Origin: Verrucomicrobia bacterium S94
GTDB lineage: Bacteria > Verrucomicrobiota > Kiritimatiellia > Kiritimatiellales > Pontiellaceae
NCBI GenBank assembly: GCA_004299845.1
Contig: CP036201.1
Coordinates: 124,001 to 188,000 of the forward strand
Reading direction: 5' to 3'
DNA length: 64,000 nt
The notes under the pieces are model-generated. The model made no database searches. It had not been told where the DNA came from and saw only the letters and a program-made list of their open reading frames with translations. The stretch's first letter is position 1. The number at the start of each line of letters is the position of its first letter. The position numbers and the translations under genes were made by a program. Shown here piece by piece: positions 37,083 through 46,428 of this stretch.

Positions 37083-37730
37083 TCAGATGCTGCTGCTTTC
37101 AACCAGTAGGCGGTGGGAGAGAACCGCGAGGGAGGAGGCGAGTTCTTCGCGCTGGAGAATGACGTGGTCAGGAACGTCGAGACTGGTGGGGGTGAAATTC
37201 CAGATGGCGCGGATGCCGCCTTCGATCATTTTATCGGCCACGCCCTGAGCGACCGAGGCGGTGACGGTCAGGATTCCGATCTGTACATGCATGCGTCGGG
37301 CGAGTTCGGGCATTTTGGCAATATCAAGGACCGTTTTCCCGTGTACTTCGGTGCCGATAATGGCGGGGTTGTTGTCGAAAGCGGCGACGATACGCATGCC
37401 GTGCTGCTCAAATCCTTTATAACCGAGGAGTGCGGTGCCCATACTGCCGACTCCGATCAGAAATGCATCGGAGGTGTTGGACCAGCCCAGGAATTCTTCA
37501 ATGGCGGAAATGATTTCGTCCATGGGGAAGCCCAGCCGCGGGCGGCCGACGGCTCCGGTAATGGCCAGATCTTTGCGGACTACGATCGGATCGAGCCCCA
37601 ATTCTTTGGCTACCACGGTGCCGGAAGCATACTCTTCCCCGCGTTCTTTCATTTTCCGCAATAACCGTAAATAGAGCGGCAGGCGTTTCAGCGTGGGGAC
37701 GCCTGCGGTTTTTCGTTCCATTTGACTCAT
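37083..37730 (-). CDS. rex: Redox-sensing transcriptional repressor Rex
   Basis: 215 residues. An N-terminal winged helix (VPTLKRLPLYLRLLRKMKERGEEYASGTVVAKELGLDPIVVRKDLAITGAVGRPRLGF) precedes a Rossmann domain with GVGSMG at 93-98, FDNNPAIIG, and the C-terminal swap helix. Rex senses NADH/NAD+ and represses fermentation and respiration genes. Start ATG (complement of 37728-37730) has a GGAG six to nine bases upstream. It is divergent from pfl; an inverted repeat overlaps its probable -35 box (37770-37793), consistent with self-regulation. Confidence 0.93.
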   Translation of the reverse strand: MSQMERKTAGVPTLKRLPLYLRLLRKMKERGEEYASGTVVAKELGLDPIVVRKDLAITGAVGRPRLGFPMDEIISAIEEFLGWSNTSDAFLIGVGSMGTALLGYKGFEQHGMRIVAAFDNNPAIIGTEVHGKTVLDIAKMPELARRMHVQIGILTVTASVAQGVADKMIEGGIRAIWNFTPTSLDVPDHVILQREELASSLAVLSHRLLVESSSI

Positions 37731-37769: not shown

Positions 37770-37793
37770 GGGTCGATATACGTCAATCGATAC
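37770..37793. promoter_or_regulatory. Candidate operator (site A) over the rex promoter
   Basis: Half-sites GGGTCGAT and ATCGATAC are separated by eight bases (ATACGTCA). Read on the minus strand the spacer contains TTGACG, which with TACGAT 18 bases further on gives a plausible promoter for rex. The same layout recurs at three more places in the window. Rex as the binding protein is inference. Confidence 0.55.
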
Positions 37794-37861
37794 CTGAGGT
37801 TCGATCGGAAGCGGCCGTATCTGAACCGAACCCCGGGGTATTACGTACACAGTTTGCATAA

Positions 37862-37885
37862 ATATCGATCATATGCAATCGATAT
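37862..37885. promoter_or_regulatory. Candidate operator (site B) in the rex-pfl intergenic region
   Basis: A perfect inverted repeat: ATATCGAT and ATCGATAT with an eight-base spacer (CATATGCA), about 200 bases ahead of pfl. It is the most symmetrical member of the four-site set. A separate weaker dyad, TGTTTG-N7-CGAACA at 37943-37961, lies closer to pfl. Confidence 0.55.
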
Positions 37886-38082
37886 AAATGTATCTTAAAA
37901 TAAGTTGCGTTCAAATACCGCTTTGTCTATAGAACGCGGTCTTGTTTGTAATTTTCGAACAGGAACAGGGGTGGATATATTAATCATGTTTGTTGGGGAG
38001 GGCCGTATCTTTTCTTAATTTCGGTTCACTTGCTGCAATTCATGAACATAATCCTTAAATAATGTTAACTCAGGAGTCAAAA

Positions 38083-40311
38083 ATGGACAAAGCGTGGAAT
38101 GGGTTTCAGGGAACGGCCTGGAGAGAAAAGGTGGATGTTCGGGATTTTATTCAGGCGAACTATACGCCCTATGAAGGTGACGGTTCTTTTCTGGAACCGG
38201 CAACCGAGGCGACGTCCTGTCTTTGGACGAAGGTGTCCGAGTTGATGAAGGAGGAGCTGGGCAAGGGCATTCTTGATGCGGATTGCGATCGGCCTTCAAC
38301 CATTACTTCGCATGATGCAGGCTTTATTGATCGGTCGTTGGAAAAGATTGTCGGCCTGCAGACCGACAAACCGCTGAAGCGCGGTATTATGCCGAACGGG
38401 GGCCGGCGGATGGTTGAGATGGGGCTTGATGCCTATGGGTATCATTTTGATGATACGGTCAATGAATTTTATAAGAAATACCGGAAAACACACAATGACG
38501 GTGTGTTCGATGCCTATACGCCGGAGATGCGCGCAGCGCGGTCTGCCGGCATTGTGACCGGATTGCCGGATGCCTACGGGCGGGGACGTATTATCGGCGA
38601 TTACCGTCGTGCAGCTCTGTATGGAGTTGATTTTCTGATTAAAGACAAACTGGCCCAGAAAGCGGAAACCGATCGCGTGCCGATGACTGAAGAGGTGATC
38701 CGGGAACGTGAAGAGTTGTCGGAGCAGCTGCGTGCGCTGGAGGAACTCAAGGTGATGGCTGAAACGTATGGGTTTGACATTTCCCGCCCGGCATCAACTG
38801 CGCAGGAAGCCGTTCAGTGGACGTATCTGGCTTATCTGGCGGCAACCAAGGAGCAGAATGGTGCGGCGATGTCGCTCGGCCGTGTTTCGACTTTCCTGGA
38901 CATCTACATTGAGCGAGATCTCGCGAACGGCGTTATTACGGAAACCGAAGCGCAGGAATTCATTGACCATTTTGTTATGAAACTCCGCATGATTCGTTTC
39001 CTCCGCACGCCGGCTTACGATGAGCTGTTTTCCGGTGATCCCACCTGGGTAACTGAATCCATCGGAGGAATGGGGGTTGACGGTCGTCCGCTCTGCACCA
39101 AAAGCAGTATGCGTTTTCTGCATACCGTCTATAATCTGGGGCCTGCGCCGGAGCCGAATCTGACGGTGCTGTGGTCCGAAAAGCTTCCGGAAAACTTTAA
39201 GGCGTTCTGTGCGAAAGTCTCCATCGATACCAGTACGATTCAGTATGAAAACGATGATCTTATGCGTCCGAAGTTCGGCGACGACTATGGAATCGCCTGC
39301 TGTGTTTCGGCCATGCCGATCGGTAAGCAGATGCAGTTTTTCGGGGCGCGGTGTAATCTGGCGAAGGCTCTGCTGTATGCGATCAACGGTGGTGTGGATG
39401 ACAAAAGCGGAAAACCGGTGGGGCCGGATTTCGGAAAGGTTGAATCTGAATATCTCGATTATGATGAGGTGATGGAAAAATTCCGGAAAACCCAGGCGTG
39501 GCTTGCGGGGCTCTATCTCAATACTCTGAATGTTATTCATTATATGCACGACAAATATGCCTATGAGCGTATTCAGATGGCGTTGCATGACCGTAAGGTG
39601 CATCGTACACTTGCCGGCGGTATTGCCGGACTTTCGGTGGTTGCCGACGCATTTTCCGCCATGAAATATGCAAAGGTGAAAGTGATTCGCAACGAAGAGG
39701 GGATGGCTGTTGATTATAAAGTTGAGGGCGAATATCCGGCCTTTGGCAATAACGACGACCGCGTGGATGCTATCGCCTGTGAACTGGTTGAAGGTTTCAT
39801 GGCCGAGCTGCGCAAACATCCGACCTACCGGAATGCTGAACCGACCATGTCGATTCTTACGATTACATCAAATGTGGTGTATGGCAAAAAAACCGGCAAC
39901 ACGCCGGACGGCCGGAAGGCCGGTGAACCGTTTGCTCCGGGGGCGAATCCGATGCACGGGCGTGATGTGAAGGGCTCGGTTGCATCCATGGCTTCCGTGG
40001 CCAAGCTGCCGTACGATGATGCGGAGGATGGAATCTCCTATACGTTTTCAATTGTTCCGAAGGCTCTGGGGAAAACGGATGAGACCCGGATCCGGAATCT
40101 GTCCGGCCTGATTGACGGCTATTTCCTGGAAACCGGACAGCATATCAATGTCAATGTTTTCGACCGTGAAATGCTTGAAGATGCCATGGAAAAGCCGGAG
40201 CTTTATCCGCAGCTTACGATTCGTGTTTCGGGATATGCCGTGAACTTTACGCGGTTGACGCGTGAGCAGCAGCTCGACGTGATCAACCGTACCTTTCACG
40301 AACGGATGTAA
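38083..40311 (+). CDS. pflB: Pyruvate formate-lyase (formate C-acetyltransferase)
   Basis: 742 residues from ATG 38083, preceded by CAGGAG; an in-frame ATG at 38062 has no ribosome site. The catalytic adjacent cysteines are C406-C407 in [10 protein letters not shown]. The glycyl-radical site is G717 in [13 protein letters not shown]. Both fit true PFL, which splits pyruvate with CoA into acetyl-CoA and formate. Other landmarks: [19 protein letters not shown] and [15 protein letters not shown]. The activase follows after about 90 bases. A candidate redox operator stands upstream. Confidence 0.94.
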
Positions 40312-40402: not shown

Positions 40403-41155
40403 ATGACGATTGAAGAAGCCAGAGCGGTCCGCGGCCGGATCAGTGCTTTTGAAAGCTGCGGAACAGTGGATGGTCCGGGATTGCGTACGGTGGTTTTTAT
40501 GCAGGGTTGTCCGCTGCGCTGTCTCTACTGTCATAATCCCGAAACCTGGGAATTCGGCGGGGGCGATGAATATACCGCCGGCGAGGTTTTTGACGAAATC
40601 AGTAAATACCGCAATTTCTGGAAATCGTCCGGCGGGGGCGTGACCTTTTCCGGTGGAGAACCGATGAGTCGTCCGCGGTTTCTTGAAGCGCTGCTGCAGC
40701 TTTGCCGGGCAGAGGGTATTCATACGGTGGTGGACACCAGCGGGTTTACGCTGATCACGGAGACCGTAAAACGGATTGTTGAGCGGACGGATCTGTTTCT
40801 GCTGGATATCAAAAGTGTGAATGCCAACATGCATCAGATCATTACCGGTGAATCCAACAGAAACACCATGGCCTTTGCGGAATATCTGGCATCGGTGAAG
40901 AAGCCGGTCTGGATGCGCTATGTTATTGTGCCGCGCCTGAACGACCGGGTTCACTGCCTGGAAAAACTGGCGCGGTGGGCGAAGGCGCAGGGGAATATCG
41001 AGCGGGTTGAACTGCTCCCGTTTCATAAAATGGGGGAATGGAAATGGAAAAAATATGAACTGCCTTACCGACTCTCTGAAACCTGGGAGCCGGGCGCGGA
41101 AGAGGTGGAAGAGTATGCCGGTATTTTCCGGGCTGCGGGGCTGATGGTCGAATAG
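40403..41155 (+). CDS. pflA: Pyruvate formate-lyase activating enzyme (radical SAM)
   Basis: 250 residues. The radical-SAM cysteines are C36, C40 and C43 in GCPLRCLYCHNPETW, preceded by the FESCGTVDGPGLRTVVF activase signature. VTFSGGEP and LDIKSVNANMH complete the SAM and partner motifs. The enzyme generates the glycyl radical on G717 of the upstream lyase under anaerobic conditions. Translated from ATG 40403 just after the REP-like palindrome. Confidence 0.94.
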   Translation: MTIEEARAVRGRISAFESCGTVDGPGLRTVVFMQGCPLRCLYCHNPETWEFGGGDEYTAGEVFDEISKYRNFWKSSGGGVTFSGGEPMSRPRFLEALLQLCRAEGIHTVVDTSGFTLITETVKRIVERTDLFLLDIKSVNANMHQIITGESNRNTMAFAEYLASVKKPVWMRYVIVPRLNDRVHCLEKLARWAKAQGNIERVELLPFHKMGEWKWKKYELPYRLSETWEPGAEEVEEYAGIFRAAGLMVE

Positions 41156-41180: not shown

Positions 41181-41220
41181 CGGCGCGGAACAGTGGTGGC
41201 AAAAGCACTGTTCCGCGCCG
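41181..41220. terminator. Strong hairpin after pflA, probable bidirectional terminator
   Basis: A perfect 15-bp stem (41181-41195 paired with 41206-41220, GC-rich) with a ten-base loop lies between the convergent pflA and hydrogenase genes. The flanking T-run is weak (CTTTGTT), so termination on either strand is likely but not proven. Confidence 0.6.
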
Positions 41221-41318: not shown

Positions 41319-41342
41319 ATATCGATAAAAGTCAATCGTATA
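41319..41342. promoter_or_regulatory. Candidate operator (site C) between convergent genes
   Basis: Half-sites ATATCGAT and ATCGTATA flank an eight-base spacer (AAAAGTCA), matching the other members at most positions. A further dyad, CGATAT-TTTT-ATATCG, at 41345-41360 overlaps the hydrogenase stop. No gene start lies on either side, so it is an orphan site or serves an unseen transcript. Confidence 0.4.
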
Positions 41343-41352
41343 AACGATATTT

Positions 41353-42825
41353 TTATATCGAAATTAAGCATGCTGTTCCGTTCGGAGTTAAAGGGGTGCT
41401 TTCATCGCACAGTCTGCGGAGTGTTTTGTGGGCGATTCGCGGGTTTCCGATTGTTCCGGGGCCTGCAATGCAGCCGCCTTCGCATGACATGACTTCAACA
41501 AAGTTTCCGGGGCATGAGCCTGTTGCCCATTGCTGCATTTGGCGAATGCTCTTTTTATCGATCCCGTCAATCTGAACCGGATCGATGGGCGTGCCGTTCG
41601 GTAATGCCGCCTGGACGGCCGCTGTCACGCCCCGGCTGGCTGCAAAACCGCGTCCTTCGCGGGAGGGGGCGATCTTTGCAGGTGCTTCCTGGCATTCCTG
41701 TACATCGATTCCCGCCCCTACCAGAATGGCGCCGAGCTCCTCAAACGTGAGGACAAAATCAACCGTGTCATTTTTTTGTGCTTCAACGCGTTTGGCGATG
41801 CATGGACCGATGAAAACCGTTACTGCATCCGGATTTATTTTCCGAACGGCGGCAGCGGTGTAGGCCATCGGAGTAGGGGTGTTCGAGACAAACGGTTTAA
41901 GGTCCGGAAGATGTTTTTCCACGGTTTCAATATAGGCAGGACAGCAGGAGGTGGTCATGAACCGGTCGCCGCTGCCGGTTTTTTCCTTCCATTCAGCACT
42001 TTCATGCACTGCTGTTTCATCGGCTCCGACAGCCACTTCGACTACGTCGGCGAATCCGATGGCTTTCAGGGCGGTAATGAGTTGAGGAAGGGTGCCGGGA
42101 AGCTGGCCGGCAATAGACGGAGCGATCATGGCAACGGTATATCTGCTCCCCAGTGTCTTCAGCACATCAATCATCTGGGAAAGATCGGTGATGGCGGCAA
42201 AGGGGCATTCGCGCAGGCATTTTCCGCAATAGGTGCACCGGGTATGGTCGATGGTCTCGCGGCCGGTATCCGGATCTTTGGTGATGGCACCGACAGGACA
42301 GGCTTCTTCGCACGGAATGGGGATGCGGATAATGGCATGGTAAGGACAGGCCTTCATGCAAAGGCCGCAGTTCACACATTTTGCGGGATTGATCCAGGCT
42401 TTTCCTTCGCGGGGTTCGATGGCCCCTTTGGGACAGACGGTTTCGCAGGAGCGCGCAAGGCATCCTTTGCATGCGTTGGTTGCGGAATACTGTGTGGTTA
42501 CGCAGGCGCTGCAGGCCACATCTATGACCGTCAGAACCGGGGCGGCCGCTTTCGGCCGCTGGAGCGCATCTTCAAAATAGGCGCTGATCGGTTTCAGTTC
42601 ATCGGTTTCATTTTCCACACTGTAGCCCAGGGCGGCCATGGTTCGGTATTTCACGACGGCGCGGTCTTTATAGATGCAGCAGCGCGAAGAGTCCTTTGCC
42701 TCTTTCGGCCGCATACTGATCGGGATACGGTTCAGCGTATCATCGGGCTGTTCAGCAAAGAAGGCGCGGGCAACCCGGGCCAGAATTTCTTTGCGGAGGC
42801 GGTTGGCCTTGTTGTCATGAAACAT
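41353..42825 (-). CDS. [FeFe] hydrogenase, catalytic type (group B-like, HfsD position)
   Basis: 490 residues. Several ferredoxin-type clusters occur: CKGCLARSCETVCP (119-132), CVNCGLCMKACP (150-161), CEEACP (172-177) and CTYCGKCLRECP (197-208). H-cluster ligands are C295 in TTSCCPAY, C342 in GPCIAKRVEA, and C448 and C452 in VMSCEGGC. The proton-relay Cys C294 is kept, so catalysis is expected: reversible reduction of protons to hydrogen. The N-terminal 45 residues are an extra region. It is the last gene of the operon and its start overlaps the [2Fe-2S] gene. Confidence 0.9.
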   Translation of the reverse strand: MFHDNKANRLRKEILARVARAFFAEQPDDTLNRIPISMRPKEAKDSSRCCIYKDRAVVKYRTMAALGYSVENETDELKPISAYFEDALQRPKAAAPVLTVIDVACSACVTTQYSATNACKGCLARSCETVCPKGAIEPREGKAWINPAKCVNCGLCMKACPYHAIIRIPIPCEEACPVGAITKDPDTGRETIDHTRCTYCGKCLRECPFAAITDLSQMIDVLKTLGSRYTVAMIAPSIAGQLPGTLPQLITALKAIGFADVVEVAVGADETAVHESAEWKEKTGSGDRFMTTSCCPAYIETVEKHLPDLKPFVSNTPTPMAYTAAAVRKINPDAVTVFIGPCIAKRVEAQKNDTVDFVLTFEELGAILVGAGIDVQECQEAPAKIAPSREGRGFAASRGVTAAVQAALPNGTPIDPVQIDGIDKKSIRQMQQWATGSCPGNFVEVMSCEGGCIAGPGTIGNPRIAHKTLRRLCDESTPLTPNGTACLISI

Positions 42826-43088
42826 TATTCAACCTCCATGCCGATCTCTTCACGTACAGCGCGGAGCAGTTTGTTGAGGGTGGCATCGGAAACCACCCGG
42901 TCGTTCACCCGGGCAAACGGAGCTTTTCCGTTTTTTTCATGAGCGCATAAGCCGAGGCAGTGGGAGCCGGTCAGATTGACATACTGGGCCGTTACGGGAT
43001 CCAGCATGTCATTAAAGGTCAGCAGATGGGCACCGCCCATCAGATAGCAGGTGGTTCCTGTACAGATCGAAACGTTAACGGTTTTCAT
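42825..43088 (-). CDS. Small thioredoxin-like [2Fe-2S] ferredoxin (NuoE/HndA-like)
   Basis: 87 residues with cysteines C9, C14, C44 and C48 in the NuoE-like pattern VSICTGTTCYLMGG...GSHCLGLC, which binds a [2Fe-2S] cluster. Such subunits carry electrons between NAD(P)H-linked partners and hydrogenases. It is coupled to its neighbours by four-base and one-base overlaps and should form part of the hydrogenase complex. Confidence 0.82.
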   Translation of the reverse strand: MKTVNVSICTGTTCYLMGGAHLLTFNDMLDPVTAQYVNLTGSHCLGLCAHEKNGKAPFARVNDRVVSDATLNKLLRAVREEIGMEVE

Positions 43089-44260
43089 ATAAACTCCAGG
43101 GTAACTTCTTTCAGATAATTCTCTTCCAATACGGTTGCTATACGCCGCAACAGACTGCGCCGGATTTCCAGTTCCATCGGCAGACTGGGATCCTGATGGG
43201 CCTGATTGATCCGTGTGCCGACGAGCAGATGGATGATATCGGAATTCAGCAGCTGTTCTTTCAGCAGTGTGGCGGCATTTTTTCCGATTGATTTTTTTTT
43301 GCCTTCCAGCAGGTTCAGTACTTCGGTGAGAGTCAGAATCCCTTCGGTTACCAGATCGATACCTTCCAGCTCTGAAACCGGCGGCAGAGAGGCTCGTTTG
43401 AAGCGGAAAAGGTCGGTATGAATTTCCCGGTTCAGTTCGCGGGCGACAATTTCGGCGGATGTGCCGCCGCTGATGATTTTGGTTCCGTCGAACCGACGGA
43501 TGGTTTCGGCATATTCCCGATCTTTTTGTTCTGAAAAAGGGGGGCCGGATGCCAGCAGGGTTCTGCGCGGAGTTCGGAAATAGAGTACGCCGCAGGTAAT
43601 GTCATCATAGGCTTTCCTGTCGGGTTCATGCTGGAGGGCGGCCTGTACAATGGCACGGGCAAGCCGGCGTGCGGACATGGAGGAGTCGTGCTGAATCCGT
43701 TCCCTGGAGAAGGCGGCACAGCCCCGGCTGCGCCAGCCCAGTGGGTGGGTCGGGGTGCCCATGCCGGCTTCGGTTACGCCGTCGCTGAAAAAAATGATGC
43801 GGTCTTCCGGCTGTGCTGTAAAACGGCTTACACGCAACGTACGGTAATCATTCTGATCACTCCCGAATTCACGGAAGGGAATTTCAACCGGGTTGCCGTT
43901 TCGCAGCAGGATGAAGGGCGGATTGCCTTGTTCAACAATCTGTACGGAGCCGTTCCGGCGGCAGTCGATGACGGTGAATGTGGCATAGGCAATCCGACGG
44001 ACCCGACAGACCGGCAGCGAGTTCATAATCACTTTGGCGTAGTGAACGAAATCGGTATAGGAATCGGCGAATTTGATGGCCATACTGGCTGTCATATTGG
44101 CCAGGATGTTTGCTTTTACGCCGCTGCCGAGTCCGTCGGAAAGCACCGCCAGCAGGCGGTGGTTTTCCGGATCTTTCTTCACCATGAATGCGTCGCCGGC
44201 GGTATGTTCCGAGGCTTTGCGGACCTGATGAAATTCCAGTTCTTTGAATAAATTCTTCAT
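43085..44260 (-). CDS. SpoIIE/PP2C-family protein phosphatase (HfsC-like)
   Basis: 391 residues. PP2C-type metal-binding motifs appear as VLSDGLGSGVKA (D42, G43), DRIIFFSDGVTEAG and YDDITCGVLYF. In clostridial Hfs-type operons a phosphatase of this family sits between a PAS hydrogenase and the catalytic hydrogenase, and this order is preserved here. Expected role: dephosphorylation of a signalling partner in response to the sensory hydrogenase. The long C-terminal tail (from about 260) is of unknown function. Confidence 0.82.
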   Translation of the reverse strand: MKNLFKELEFHQVRKASEHTAGDAFMVKKDPENHRLLAVLSDGLGSGVKANILANMTASMAIKFADSYTDFVHYAKVIMNSLPVCRVRRIAYATFTVIDCRRNGSVQIVEQGNPPFILLRNGNPVEIPFREFGSDQNDYRTLRVSRFTAQPEDRIIFFSDGVTEAGMGTPTHPLGWRSRGCAAFSRERIQHDSSMSARRLARAIVQAALQHEPDRKAYDDITCGVLYFRTPRRTLLASGPPFSEQKDREYAETIRRFDGTKIISGGTSAEIVARELNREIHTDLFRFKRASLPPVSELEGIDLVTEGILTLTEVLNLLEGKKKSIGKNAATLLKEQLLNSDIIHLLVGTRINQAHQDPSLPMELEIRRSLLRRIATVLEENYLKEVTLEFI

Positions 44261-44316
44261 TTCTGATCCATGGGTTTTACGGATGTTGAATCCGTGGGAT
44301 CTGGTTGGGGCCGGAT

Positions 44317-46017
44317 TTATGAATGCTGTTCCGGTGTTTCGGCATAATCTTCGGCAATCGAGCGCAGAAGAATTTCCGTGTCTGCCATATGTTCACCGAG
44401 TTTGCAGGCAATGTCCTGCACGGCAGCCATGTTCTTATCAATCACTTCGCGCGCTTTCCGGGCGATCAGCTCCCGTCGGTATTCTGTCTGAGTAACATCC
44501 AGCAGCGTGGCCCCGACGGATTTTCCGGTTTCAATGGGAAAGATGCTTATTTTAAGGAGGCGCTCATCAAAGCGAAGAGTGTCGGAATGGTATTCCCGAC
44601 CACTCCGGTTTACTTCGCTGAACAACGGTGCGAAAGGCAGAATTTTTCGCAGGTCGGCACCCTCAAGTCCCGGCCGGGCTTCGTAAGCCAGCAGTGTTTC
44701 CTCTCCGGCCAGTCGGGCAAAGTTTTCATTGCACTCAATCACCCGGAGGGTATCGTCCACAATCACCACGCCCGAGGGCATACAACGGAGCAGAGCATTG
44801 GCTTTTTTCTGCGCCTGTTTCCGAAGGTAGGACAGACACATGTCGGGCTCGGCTGTTTCATAAAAGAGGGCTTCGGCAAATGTACGGCAGGTTTCATAGC
44901 CGCATCCGCCACAGTTCAGTTCGTCCGTCGGTTTATATTTTCCGACCCGTTCCAGTGCCGAACGCAGTTCGGCTTCTGTTAAGCGGTCCGTCGTCGGCGG
45001 GACGGGGGAGAAGGAGTGGGCAATAGCTCGAGCGGGGGCGGAAGGCCGTTGGGGGCAGGCGTTGCGGCGGATGGCGAGTTCTCCGGCGAGCAGGGTCTGG
45101 CGGGCCTTCGTCTGGGGACCGCCGATGCATCCGCCGGGGCAGGCCAGGGCCTCAAGGAAAACCGGAGTTCCAAGTGATTCTGTATCCAGGTTTTCCAGAG
45201 TCTGGATAACGGCTTCAAGACCGTTCATGGCCAGCAGTTCGGTTTGGGGAAGTGGATAGTCCTCCAGCGTTTTATTCATTCCGCCGGCCAGCGGATAGAG
45301 CGCGCCGTGTTTTGCCTCTTGCGGCTCGAAAGCTGCCGGGGCTGATTCGGCCGGAATAATACCGCATTCATCCAGCCATTCGGCAAGTTCGCTGAAGGTC
45401 AGTGCAATATCAGTGAGTCCGCTGAATTCGTCACTTTCGCACTTTTTGGCAATACATGGGCCGATGAACACCACGGCGGTATCCGGGCCATAATGTTCTT
45501 TCAGGTACCGGGCGTGTGCCTGCATGGGGCTGAGTAAGGGGGAAAGGCAGCCGGTAAATTCGGGGCGGTATTTGCGGATGAGGTCCACGACGACCGGGCA
45601 GGCCGTGGAAATATGTAAGCCCGGACGGGCGTGGTTCAGTGATTCCGCAAGCGAGCGGGTTACCGCTTCGGCGCCGAGTGCCGTTTCGCTGACGGCATAA
45701 AAACCGAGCTGTTTGAGGGCGCCGACGATCGCTTCAGGTGCTGTATCCGGCCATTCACCCGCATAGGACGGGGCGAGTGAGGCGATGACTTTACTTTTTC
45801 GCTGCAGCAGGTTTTTGGCTCGTGTGAGGTCGTTCCGAACCTTTTTAGCTCCCGCCGGACAGGTATGCACACAGAGGCCGCAGGCAATGCAGCGCTCCGG
45901 AATGACTTCCGCGTGGCCGTTTTCGATTTTAATGGCTTTGACCGGGCAGTGACGCACGCATTTGTAGCAGTCGCGGCAGTCGGTTTCTTCGGTGTAGATG
46001 GGATATTTTCGGTTCAT
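44317..46017 (-). CDS. Sensory-type [FeFe] hydrogenase with PAS domain (HfsB-like)
   Basis: 566 residues: two [4Fe-4S] motifs (C14-C24, C43-C53), a hydrogenase core, a four-Cys cluster domain (NCGGCGYETCRTF...DMC), a PAS domain (about 405-500) and a helical tail. H-cluster ligands C140, C188, C293 and C297 remain, but the proton-relay Cys of TSCCP is Ala here (STACPVV). The methionines of the usual loops are also changed. This fits group C sensory hydrogenases rather than a turnover enzyme. It probably senses hydrogen and signals through its PAS region to the adjacent phosphatase. Confidence 0.86.
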   Translation of the reverse strand: MNRKYPIYTEETDCRDCYKCVRHCPVKAIKIENGHAEVIPERCIACGLCVHTCPAGAKKVRNDLTRAKNLLQRKSKVIASLAPSYAGEWPDTAPEAIVGALKQLGFYAVSETALGAEAVTRSLAESLNHARPGLHISTACPVVVDLIRKYRPEFTGCLSPLLSPMQAHARYLKEHYGPDTAVVFIGPCIAKKCESDEFSGLTDIALTFSELAEWLDECGIIPAESAPAAFEPQEAKHGALYPLAGGMNKTLEDYPLPQTELLAMNGLEAVIQTLENLDTESLGTPVFLEALACPGGCIGGPQTKARQTLLAGELAIRRNACPQRPSAPARAIAHSFSPVPPTTDRLTEAELRSALERVGKYKPTDELNCGGCGYETCRTFAEALFYETAEPDMCLSYLRKQAQKKANALLRCMPSGVVIVDDTLRVIECNENFARLAGEETLLAYEARPGLEGADLRKILPFAPLFSEVNRSGREYHSDTLRFDERLLKISIFPIETGKSVGATLLDVTQTEYRRELIARKAREVIDKNMAAVQDIACKLGEHMADTEILLRSIAEDYAETPEQHS

Positions 46018-46105
46018 GGAATGTTCTGTTGATTGAAGGCCGCAGGATAAGGATGGGTGAATAGGGTGAATTTTTTAATCGGGAAACGTTTGAGCGCAGG
46101 AGCTG

Positions 46106-46363
46106 TCAGGTTTCATTTTTTACCTCTGCAAAATAGAATTCCAGCAGGTCGAGCAGGGTTCCTGTATCCAGTTCGCGGTGGAGGTTGCCGTTGATTTCAA
46201 TATTGGGGCCGCATCCGCACTCGCCCCGGCATCGACAGCCCGAGAATGTGATGGCGGCGGCAATGCCGTTGCCATGCAGATAATTTTCAATCAGCTCCAG
46301 ATGCTCGCGATTACCGCGCGCAAAGCAGGAACTTCCCATGCAGATTGTGATGCTGTTGCTCAT
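46106..46363 (-). CDS. Small (2Fe-2S) ferredoxin-domain protein (HfsA-like position)
   Basis: 85 residues. Cysteines C8, C13, C43, C45, C49 and C51 lie in ITICMGSSCFARGN and SGCRCRGECGCGPNIEING, a thioredoxin-like [2Fe-2S] pattern with extra Cys. First gene of the hydrogenase operon. The start is in range of a promoter-like TTGACA that overlaps the candidate operator at 46405-46428. Confidence 0.78.
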   Translation of the reverse strand: MSNSITICMGSSCFARGNREHLELIENYLHGNGIAAAITFSGCRCRGECGCGPNIEINGNLHRELDTGTLLDLLEFYFAEVKNET

Positions 46364-46404: not shown

Positions 46405-46428
46405 GAATCGATATATGTCAATCGATAA
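46405..46428. promoter_or_regulatory. Candidate operator (site E) over the hydrogenase-operon promoter
   Basis: GAATCGAT and ATCGATAA flank an eight-base spacer (ATATGTCA). On the minus strand this reads ATCGAT-TGACATAT-ATCGAT, so TTGACA, a consensus -35, is embedded in the dyad. The -10 is not clear. The position suits repression of the hydrogenase operon by a redox regulator such as Rex. Confidence 0.55.

Follow-up and report, generated by a model that had tools for sequence, protein, structure and literature searches.

What is the role of an [FeFe] hydrogenase that carries a PAS domain, lacks the cysteine of its proton relay and is encoded beside a protein phosphatase? The question is raised by a locus in Verrucomicrobia bacterium S94, within a 64-kb window (the whole stretch analysed, CP036201.1 positions 124,001 to 188,000, whose numbering is used for coordinates below) of a genome that is a single 4.1-Mb contig. 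Five minus-strand open reading frames (ORFs) occupy positions 41353–46363 and encode, in 5' to 3' order, a short thioredoxin-like [2Fe-2S] protein (FdA, 46106..46363; Pfam PF01257, 2Fe-2S_thioredx, 33.2 bits, cut-off 24.8), the 566-aa PAS-bearing hydrogenase and putative H2 sensor HydS (44317..46017; Pfam Fe_hyd_lg_C, FeS and PAS, with motifs and a tree described below), a 391-aa SpoIIE/PP2C-type phosphatase (43085..44260; PF07228, 57.6 bits, cut-off 25), a second short thioredoxin-like [2Fe-2S] protein (FdB, 42825..43088; PF01257, 26.9 bits, cut-off 24.8), and a 490-aa catalytic monomeric [FeFe] hydrogenase of the group B type (HydA, 41353..42825; TIGR04105, Pfam Fe_hyd_lg_C and Fer4). This is the gene order given by an earlier sequence-only reading of the DNA, and both the ORFs and the Pfam matches agree with it. 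The FdA and HydS genes are separated by 88 bp and the HydS and phosphatase genes by 56 bp, the phosphatase and FdB genes overlap by 4 bp and the FdB and HydA genes by 1 bp, a spacing that fits a single transcript. FdA has a C-terminal similarity to NuoE/HoxE that is weak and below the cut-offs of those models, and a NCBIfam scan with FdB gave no match. Judged by its sequence, the operon is an Hfs/HydS-phosphatase system of a kind known from Clostridia, and we think it probable that it acts as a two-input controller of fermentative electron disposal, responding to H2 through HydS and the phosphatase and to NADH through a linked Rex repressor.

The HydS protein comprises N-terminal ferredoxin-type motifs, an H-domain, an extra [4Fe-4S] domain (NC..CGYETC), a PAS domain and a conserved C-terminal helix, with both FeS (PF04060) and PAS_8 above cut-off. 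We aligned 87 HydS, 38 short HydA and 17 long HydA sequences, sets in which some contigs were read a second time. All 87 of the HydS-type sequences retain the four H-cluster cysteines. The position of Cys299 in the reference hydrogenase CpI is Ala in 82 of the 87 (with two Cys, two His and one Lys) and Cys in 37/38 short and 16/17 long HydA; that of Met353 is Gly in 84/87 HydS and 37/38 short HydA and Met in 16/17 long HydA; and that of Met497 is Leu in 80/87 HydS and Met in 36/38 short HydA. In the window, HydS has Ala, Gly and Leu at these three positions, and the catalytic HydA likewise has Gly at that of Met353. The sequence-only reading was correct in reporting that the relay Cys is replaced by Ala in the PAS member (STACPVV) and kept in the catalytic member (TSCCPAY), with all four H-cluster ligands present. 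These positions are the ones altered in the sensory hydrogenase of Thermotoga maritima, TmHydS, which resembles the window HydS in its C299, M353 and M497 replacements, in its PAS domain and in sharing its operon with a further hydrogenase gene (PMC10055695). Both the group B enzyme CpIII and TmHydS are described as having an F/G pair at the site of Met353 (PMC12138974).

A FastTree phylogeny of 244 H-domain columns, from which six loci repeating contigs under another identifier and locus L138 were left out, included as references fragments of CpI, T. maritima HydA, T. kivui HydA1, A. woodii HydA1 and HydA2 of the hydrogen-dependent CO2 reductase (HDCR). All 80 of the HydS sequences form one clade with support of 1.0, apart from the CpI, bifurcating HydA and HDCR HydA2 references; the clade also holds L090_8534, which was filed as a long HydA but lacks the H-cluster residues. 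The short HydA form a clade with 35 of 36 members and support of 0.99, the odd one being L137_15541, and the remaining long HydA join the references in a grouping of low support (0.229). HydS is therefore not found among the turnover enzymes, a placement that had been named beforehand as one that would speak against a sensor, but in a separate clade. It also scores below both the group A model TIGR02512 (87.2 against a cut-off of 405.95) and the group B model TIGR04105 (199.4 against 450). The features listed for group C, to which T. maritima HydS has been assigned, are the H-cluster ligands, an extra C-terminal [4Fe-4S] cluster and a PAS domain (PMC13104023), and all three are present in HydS. 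We regard HydS as a putative sensory hydrogenase of group C, the choice of C over D resting on the PAS domain in a tree that holds no named reference of either group.

The catalytic partner can be placed more simply: HydA matches TIGR04105 (FeFe_hydrog_B1) with 529.3 bits against a cut-off of 450, over model positions 2–460 of 462, and by this measure is a group B enzyme. It has F-x-G ahead of the second H-cluster Cys, like the F/G pair of CpIII (PMC12138974), although CpIII has TSCCCP where the window HydA has TSCCP. The sequence-only reading, which had called for both hydrogenases to be assigned to groups, is thus extended by a group B HydA and a HydS clade outside A and B. It had also stated that the maturation genes are not in the window, and this is right; HydE, HydF and HydG are clustered near C1:1,631,000 of the window genome, each above cut-off, and the gene set for H-cluster maturation is therefore complete.

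The phosphatase consists of an N-terminal SpoIIE/PP2C part and an added alpha/beta C-terminal domain of about 160 aa. Residues D42, D160, D219 and D220, which we take to be the metal-site aspartates, are invariant in 19 sequences. An AlphaFold2 model made with 18 relatives in the input has a mean predicted local distance difference test score (pLDDT) of 88.3, and the best fold matches of its N-terminal part are 3pu9 and the SpoIIE, RsbU and RsbX domains. The conserved C-terminal domain (residues 231–391, window 43085–43570, minus strand) belongs to no Pfam family, carries GPP, PP, TEG and N..H motifs that are invariant in 18 sequences, and when modelled alone gives an alpha/beta fold (pLDDT 87.5) for which Foldseek returned no match at E≤0.001. 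With VIA-align 2 the top matches are a NuoG domain (7awt_G; Z 10.7, rmsd 3.1, 121 aligned) and formylmethanofuran dehydrogenase subunits, followed lower down by dehydrogenases and methylglyoxal synthase. We take the modelled fold to be a common alpha/beta arrangement, and that it holds a ligand site is a guess.

To what extent is this arrangement conserved? When 194 genomes of the phylum were searched with the phosphatase, 89 gave matches at E≤0.001 and 58 at E≤1e-20, and we examined 60 neighbourhoods from phylum genomes together with 22 loci from other records. The counts below refer to 76 loci with a full HydS, having left out the window, repeated contigs, L137 and L138 (Bacteroidales-type genome); two contigs are counted twice in this set (L007/L060 and L010/L061), and some stretches end at contig ends. 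The closest named relatives of the window HydS, at 68–73% identity, are in five Pontiellaceae records and one Kiritimatiellales record, phylum Kiritimatiellota, and HydS and the phosphatase are also found in records titled Geobacter/Geobacteraceae, Deltaproteobacteria, Clostridia, Spirochaetota, Riflebacteria and Planctomycetota. Across these phyla the phosphatase lies directly 3' of HydS in 75/76 loci, the exception (L017) ending at a contig end, so that the core of the operon is kept where its loss had been foreseen as an argument against the sensor. Two layouts recur: FdA-HydS-phosphatase-FdB-HydA, often with adhE ahead or divergent, and Rex-FdA-HydS-phosphatase, often with HydB and a long HydA next. 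One Riflebacteria contig (L022, the same contig as L136) carries two HydS and two phosphatases around a single group B-type HydA.

Among the 76 loci, a group B HydA is near HydS in 34 and a trimeric HydB/HydA in 20, Rex is present in 38, full-length AdhE in 23 (with two shorter alcohol dehydrogenase ORFs in addition), and one or other of Rex and full AdhE in 51. Of the 23 loci with adhE, 22 belong to the group B set, and both AdhE proteins that we scanned have aldehyde and Fe-alcohol dehydrogenase domains. By chance a rex gene would be expected in such a stretch at about 1% of loci, given two rex copies per ~3 Mb; the loci are related, and we attach no p-value to the comparison. Pfl was considered as a general partner and rejected, as it occurs in only 6/76 loci. 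The sequence-only reading had noted rex and pfl near the operon and proposed a link to NADH control; both genes are where it had put them, and the proposal gains from the frequency of Rex and from a Rex-like dyad in part of the loci.

We also identified a sister module in which a PAS-only protein with no hydrogenase domain is followed by the same kind of phosphatase. It is present at four loci in three genomes (L107:6726-8842, L108:6997-9113, L134:7499-9202 and L135:7551-9311, the last two in one genome; Pfam was run on L107 and L134), and at L107 it sits behind rex and a [2Fe-2S] gene. In an alignment of 11 sampled HydS and the four PAS-only proteins, the C-terminal helix of the latter aligns with the HydS tail (VIDKNMAAVQDIACKLGEHMADTEILL in the window). 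Since the PAS domain and this helix are common to both types of sensor, we infer that the helix is the contact with the phosphatase. The PAS-only module must sense something other than the H-cluster module does.

Canonical Rex boxes, TTGTTAA-N4-TTAACAA (PMC8457756), were rejected for the window promoters, where the best agrees in 10/14 letters. Sites resembling ATCGAT-N8-ATCGAT were first seen by eye upstream of FdA, rex, adhE and pfl in related promoters, and where adhE is divergent from FdA the upstream dyads are common to both genes. The operon promoter in the window has the dyad ATCGAT-N8-ATCGAT at 46407..46426, with a weaker overlapping copy reaching 46440. Immediately 5' of where rex probably starts, two dyads that overlap each other (37772-37791 and 37786-37805) each have one mismatch to WTCGAT-N8-ATCGAW, another dyad, ATCGATCATATGCAATCGAT, is in the rex-pfl intergenic region (37864..37883), and two more, with one mismatch each, are at the 3' end of HydA (41321-41340 and 41343-41362). 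Exact WTCGAT-N8-ATCGAW occurs five times across the window genome, twice in the cluster (FdA promoter and rex-pfl) and three times inside ORFs; genome G035 has three (two in the cluster), G159, which belongs to the genus of the window genome, four (two in the cluster) and G050 three (all in the cluster), and a reversed-pattern control occurs in none of the four genomes. One of the exact dyads in G159 lies 5' of a gene pair with NuoE-like and NuoF-like Pfam domains, whereas the HydABC region of the window genome (L131) has no dyad with fewer than two mismatches. TCGAT-N8-ATCGA with at most one mismatch is found at eight places in the 64-kb window, against a mean of 3.41 in 100 shuffles, one of which reached at least eight.

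In other phyla the dyad reads TCGATAA-N4-TTATCGA and shares its frame with the Rex box. When the operon's upstream region was compared with 300 random windows taken from its own locus, it scored at p<0.05 in 33/75 loci and at p<0.01 in 23/75, with the reservation that the consensus was written after part of the scored promoters had been inspected. Among the 43 loci whose operon-start region had not been inspected beforehand, 12 have p<0.05 (about 2 expected) and nine have p<0.01 (about 0.4 expected), although several of these loci are closely related to one another. Among the titles listed in our literature search none concerned Rex operators in these bacteria; the comparative Rex study of Ravcheev et al. 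2012, cited in PMC8457756, may already list the motif.

If Rex is the protein that binds this dyad, does it have the residues to do so? The linked rex gene (37083..37730, minus strand) probably starts at 37730, giving 215 aa, rather than at the ATG farther upstream with which the longest ORF begins. Its product has the winged-helix DNA-binding (PF06971) and Rossmann-type NAD-binding (PF02629) domains, both above cut-off, and belongs to the NF003994 subfamily (282.9 bits, above the curated cut-off of 130), with an altered recognition helix and wing (VRKDLAITGAVGRPRLGF). In T. maritima Rex, Arg48 and Lys49 read G and A, Ser52 contacts the backbone, and Arg60 and Gly61 contact the two pyrimidines before the G (PMC8836258). 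Among the 38 Rex proteins of HydS loci the position of Ser52 is Glu in 23, Ala in 13 and Gly in one, with one not read, and position 60 is Pro in 27 of the 37 read. The linked Rex thus retains Arg-Lys and differs from T. maritima Rex at 52 and mostly at 60, and its candidate operator retains the G and A and differs in the base before the G, resembling TCGATAA-N4-TTATCGA and not TTGTTAA-N4-TTAACAA. NF003994 is the best model for 7/7 scanned Rex from HydS or PAS-module loci (window, L024, L019, L064, L071, L115 and L107) and also for L158, and NF003996 fits the second Rex in both the window genome and G050. Despite its fit to NF003994, the Rex of the PAS-only module at L107 has Ser52.

We compared sites and residues in 68 distinct Rex proteins, taking as the canonical score the better of two consensus forms, so that the comparison leans against the new dyad. 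A new dyad of at least 11/14 letters accompanies 18/46 Rex with Ala, Glu or Gly at 52 and 0/22 of the rest. In the first group the new dyad outscores the canonical box in 24 cases, is outscored by it in 11 and ties with it in 11; for the rest the corresponding numbers are 1, 20 and 1. Individual cases can be clear, with a perfect TTGTGAA-N4-TTCACAA for a Spirochaete Rex with Ser52 and a perfect TCGATAA-N4-TTATCGA for the Ala52 Rex of a Clostridia locus (L024). The canonical-box half of a two-operator picture is weak: a canonical box of at least 12/14 is found for only 4/22 Rex without Ala, Glu or Gly at 52, and that of the window genome's second Rex scores 10/14. Ser52 and Arg60 are named as exceptions to the conservation of the Rex family, although elsewhere the same paper calls Arg60 highly conserved (PMC8836258); if they are poorly conserved, a change of residue need not mean a new operator code.

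We therefore advance only tentatively, and with more doubt than confidence, the proposal that H2-sensor/phosphatase modules travel with a Rex subfamily having its own operator code, in which Ser52 is replaced by Ala or Glu, often with Pro60, and TTGTTAA-N4-TTAACAA by TCGATAA-N4-TTATCGA. This could allow two insulated NADH circuits in one genome, with the linked Rex serving HydS, the group B hydrogenase and pfl or adhE, and a Ser52 Rex serving the NADH-dependent HydABC, whose small HATPase protein could oppose the phosphatase as a kinase. Our doubt reflects the limited conservation of Ser52 and Arg60 and the weak canonical boxes of the second Rex. If the proposal is true, it describes a natural pair of repressors with different operators within one genome.

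How might the two inputs act together? H2 would bind the H-cluster of HydS, in which the proton relay and second sphere are disarmed, and the resulting redox state would be relayed by the extra [4Fe-4S] cluster to the PAS domain and C-terminal helix, which would set the activity of the SpoIIE-type phosphatase. The phosphatase would then dephosphorylate a protein controlling the group B hydrogenase, the pyruvate branch (Pfl here, AdhE in relatives), or both, and FdA and FdB probably carry electrons to or from HydS and HydA. Through the second input, suggested by the sites, the linked Rex would at low NADH/NAD+ repress the operon, rex and pfl via the TCGATAA-N4-TTATCGA-like dyads, and would release them when NADH rises, as known Rex proteins do (PMC8836258). 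The frequent adhE neighbours in relatives agree with AdhE being one of the outputs.

Several observations weigh against such a controller. Neither Rex, AdhE, Pfl nor a second hydrogenase is in the stretch at 10/76 loci, and a group B HydA is the only one of these at 9/76. The upstream dyad does not reach p<0.05 in 42/75 loci, so the site is not universal. AdhE was rejected as a direct output in the window genome, which has no full-length AdhE match. There are 19 HATPase_c_2 and 10 STAS matches in that genome, possible kinase or target partners, and none adjoins the operon or the phosphatase. Two genomes of the same genus, G087 and G127, keep a linked-type Rex and have no phosphatase match (HydS was not searched there); in both, this Rex adjoins a phosphopantetheinyl transferase (C76:11408 and C242:2761; L188 and L189), and it looks like the operon was lost from between the two genes. 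This Rex therefore does not depend on the sensor.

An alternative explanation of the first input is that HydS reports the redox state of a ferredoxin or [2Fe-2S] protein, and not dissolved H2, with the H-cluster serving only to set the potential threshold. The [2Fe-2S] genes that flank the HydS-phosphatase pair and the ferredoxin-type motifs of HydS are consistent with this, and the PAS-only modules share the kind of phosphatase without having an H-cluster, so that the signalling half needs no H2. However, the retention of the ligands in every HydS and the loss of the relay in nearly all of them argue that H2 binding is under selection, and we think this explanation unlikely. That HydS is an ordinary slow turnover hydrogenase, with the PAS domain and phosphatase as unrelated neighbours, we consider very improbable: TmHydS and TamHydS do evolve H2, with activity decreased relative to group A (PMC12138974), but a clade of its own, the missing relay Cys and a phosphatase adjacent in loci of several phyla are difficult to reconcile with it.

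For the second input, a regulator other than the linked Rex could bind the shared dyad, which differs in two letters per arm from TTGTTAA-N4-TTAACAA and falls short of significance in the loci noted above; furthermore, Rex is kept in G087, where the site is absent, and in G127, where it has decayed. Against this, the dyad has the 18-bp frame of the Rex box, tracks the recognition residue of Rex as described above, and lies upstream of rex itself in the Clostridia locus L024 (14/14), in Deltaproteobacteria/Geobacteraceae and in other genomes of the window's phylum. A different regulator thus seems rather improbable to us, and we retain the linked Rex as the probable carrier of the NADH input.

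The sequence-only reading had likened the operon to HfsABCD of Thermoanaerobacterium, and the likeness holds, with a PAS hydrogenase, a serine phosphatase and a group B hydrogenase in one operon. In T. saccharolyticum and T. thermosaccharolyticum, HfsB is a PAS [FeFe] hydrogenase and HfsC a serine-phosphatase homologue, as in the window, and HfsD is called group B in a review (PMC11837493, PMC8924675, PMC5707799). HfsA is said to align poorly with known proteins (PMC11837493), whereas the first gene of the window operon encodes a [2Fe-2S] protein; this comparison is one of descriptions only. The window operon also differs in having a second [2Fe-2S] gene before the catalytic enzyme, a Kiritimatiellota host, rex and pfl in the cluster, and other operator letters. 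A Rex site has been predicted upstream of hfsABCD and of adhE (PMC5886521). Deletion of hfsB raised hydrogenase activity and ethanol yield, and deletion of hfsA or hfsB raised adhE transcripts two- to threefold, whereas deletion of hfsC or hfsD did not raise them (PMC5707799). The hfs operon of Clostridium thermocellum is Clo1313_1796-1793 (PMC5707799) and its second Rex gene is Clo1313_1799 (PMC8457756); from the locus numbers we infer that the two are close. The Ruminococcus albus HydS/HydA2 system, as it has been described, also groups a PAS sensor hydrogenase with a ferredoxin-dependent hydrogenase and a gene for Ser/Thr signalling, although unlike that system the window operon has no kinase gene.

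Judged by the titles and abstract openings listed in our literature search, no paper concerns such an operon in Kiritimatiellota, those listed on a sensor of this kind being about Thermoanaerobacterium, and in the publications consulted the sensory role of HydS-type hydrogenases is still termed putative. With a partner gene, a shared helix and recurrent links to Rex and AdhE, the question of HydS signalling is narrowed to testable proteins, and the finding of adhE beside HydS in Kiritimatiellota and related genomes is in accord, from a different bacterial group, with the effect of hfsB on adhE expression and ethanol yield in Thermoanaerobacterium. The sequence-only reading was right in what it observed and largely right in its interpretation; its account needs amending in that the catalytic enzyme is group B, the first gene encodes a [2Fe-2S] protein unlike HfsA as described, and the phosphatase has an extra C-terminal domain. 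To it we add how widely Rex and AdhE are linked to the system, the dyad common to several promoters, the subfamily to which the linked Rex belongs, and the sister module with its PAS-only protein.

The window genome encodes a third hydrogenase at C1:439997, an NADH-dependent group A6 enzyme with HydB- and HydC-like genes. Its HydABC operon (L131:8794-13783, G000 C1:439793-444782) includes a gene for a small HATPase protein (L131:12767-13297), and adjoining it is the second rex gene (L131:14091-14738), whose product has Ser at 52. The small HATPase protein (PF02518, 64.1 bits, below the cut-offs of anti-sigma models) is the best lead for a kinase opposing the phosphatase, and a lead only.

The HydS operon itself is flanked on one side by rex and the pfl genes and on the other by a phosphopantetheinyl transferase gene, with a hydroxylamine reductase gene farther away. 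On the plus strand, pflB encodes pyruvate formate-lyase (38062..40311; TIGR01255, 1208.7 bits, cut-off 994.2), and the gene adjoining it is probably pflA, for the radical SAM activating enzyme (40403..41155; PF04055 and PF13353). Between the convergent pflA and HydA genes there is a perfect 15-bp inverted repeat with a 10-nt loop (41181-41220), which is perhaps a transcription terminator.

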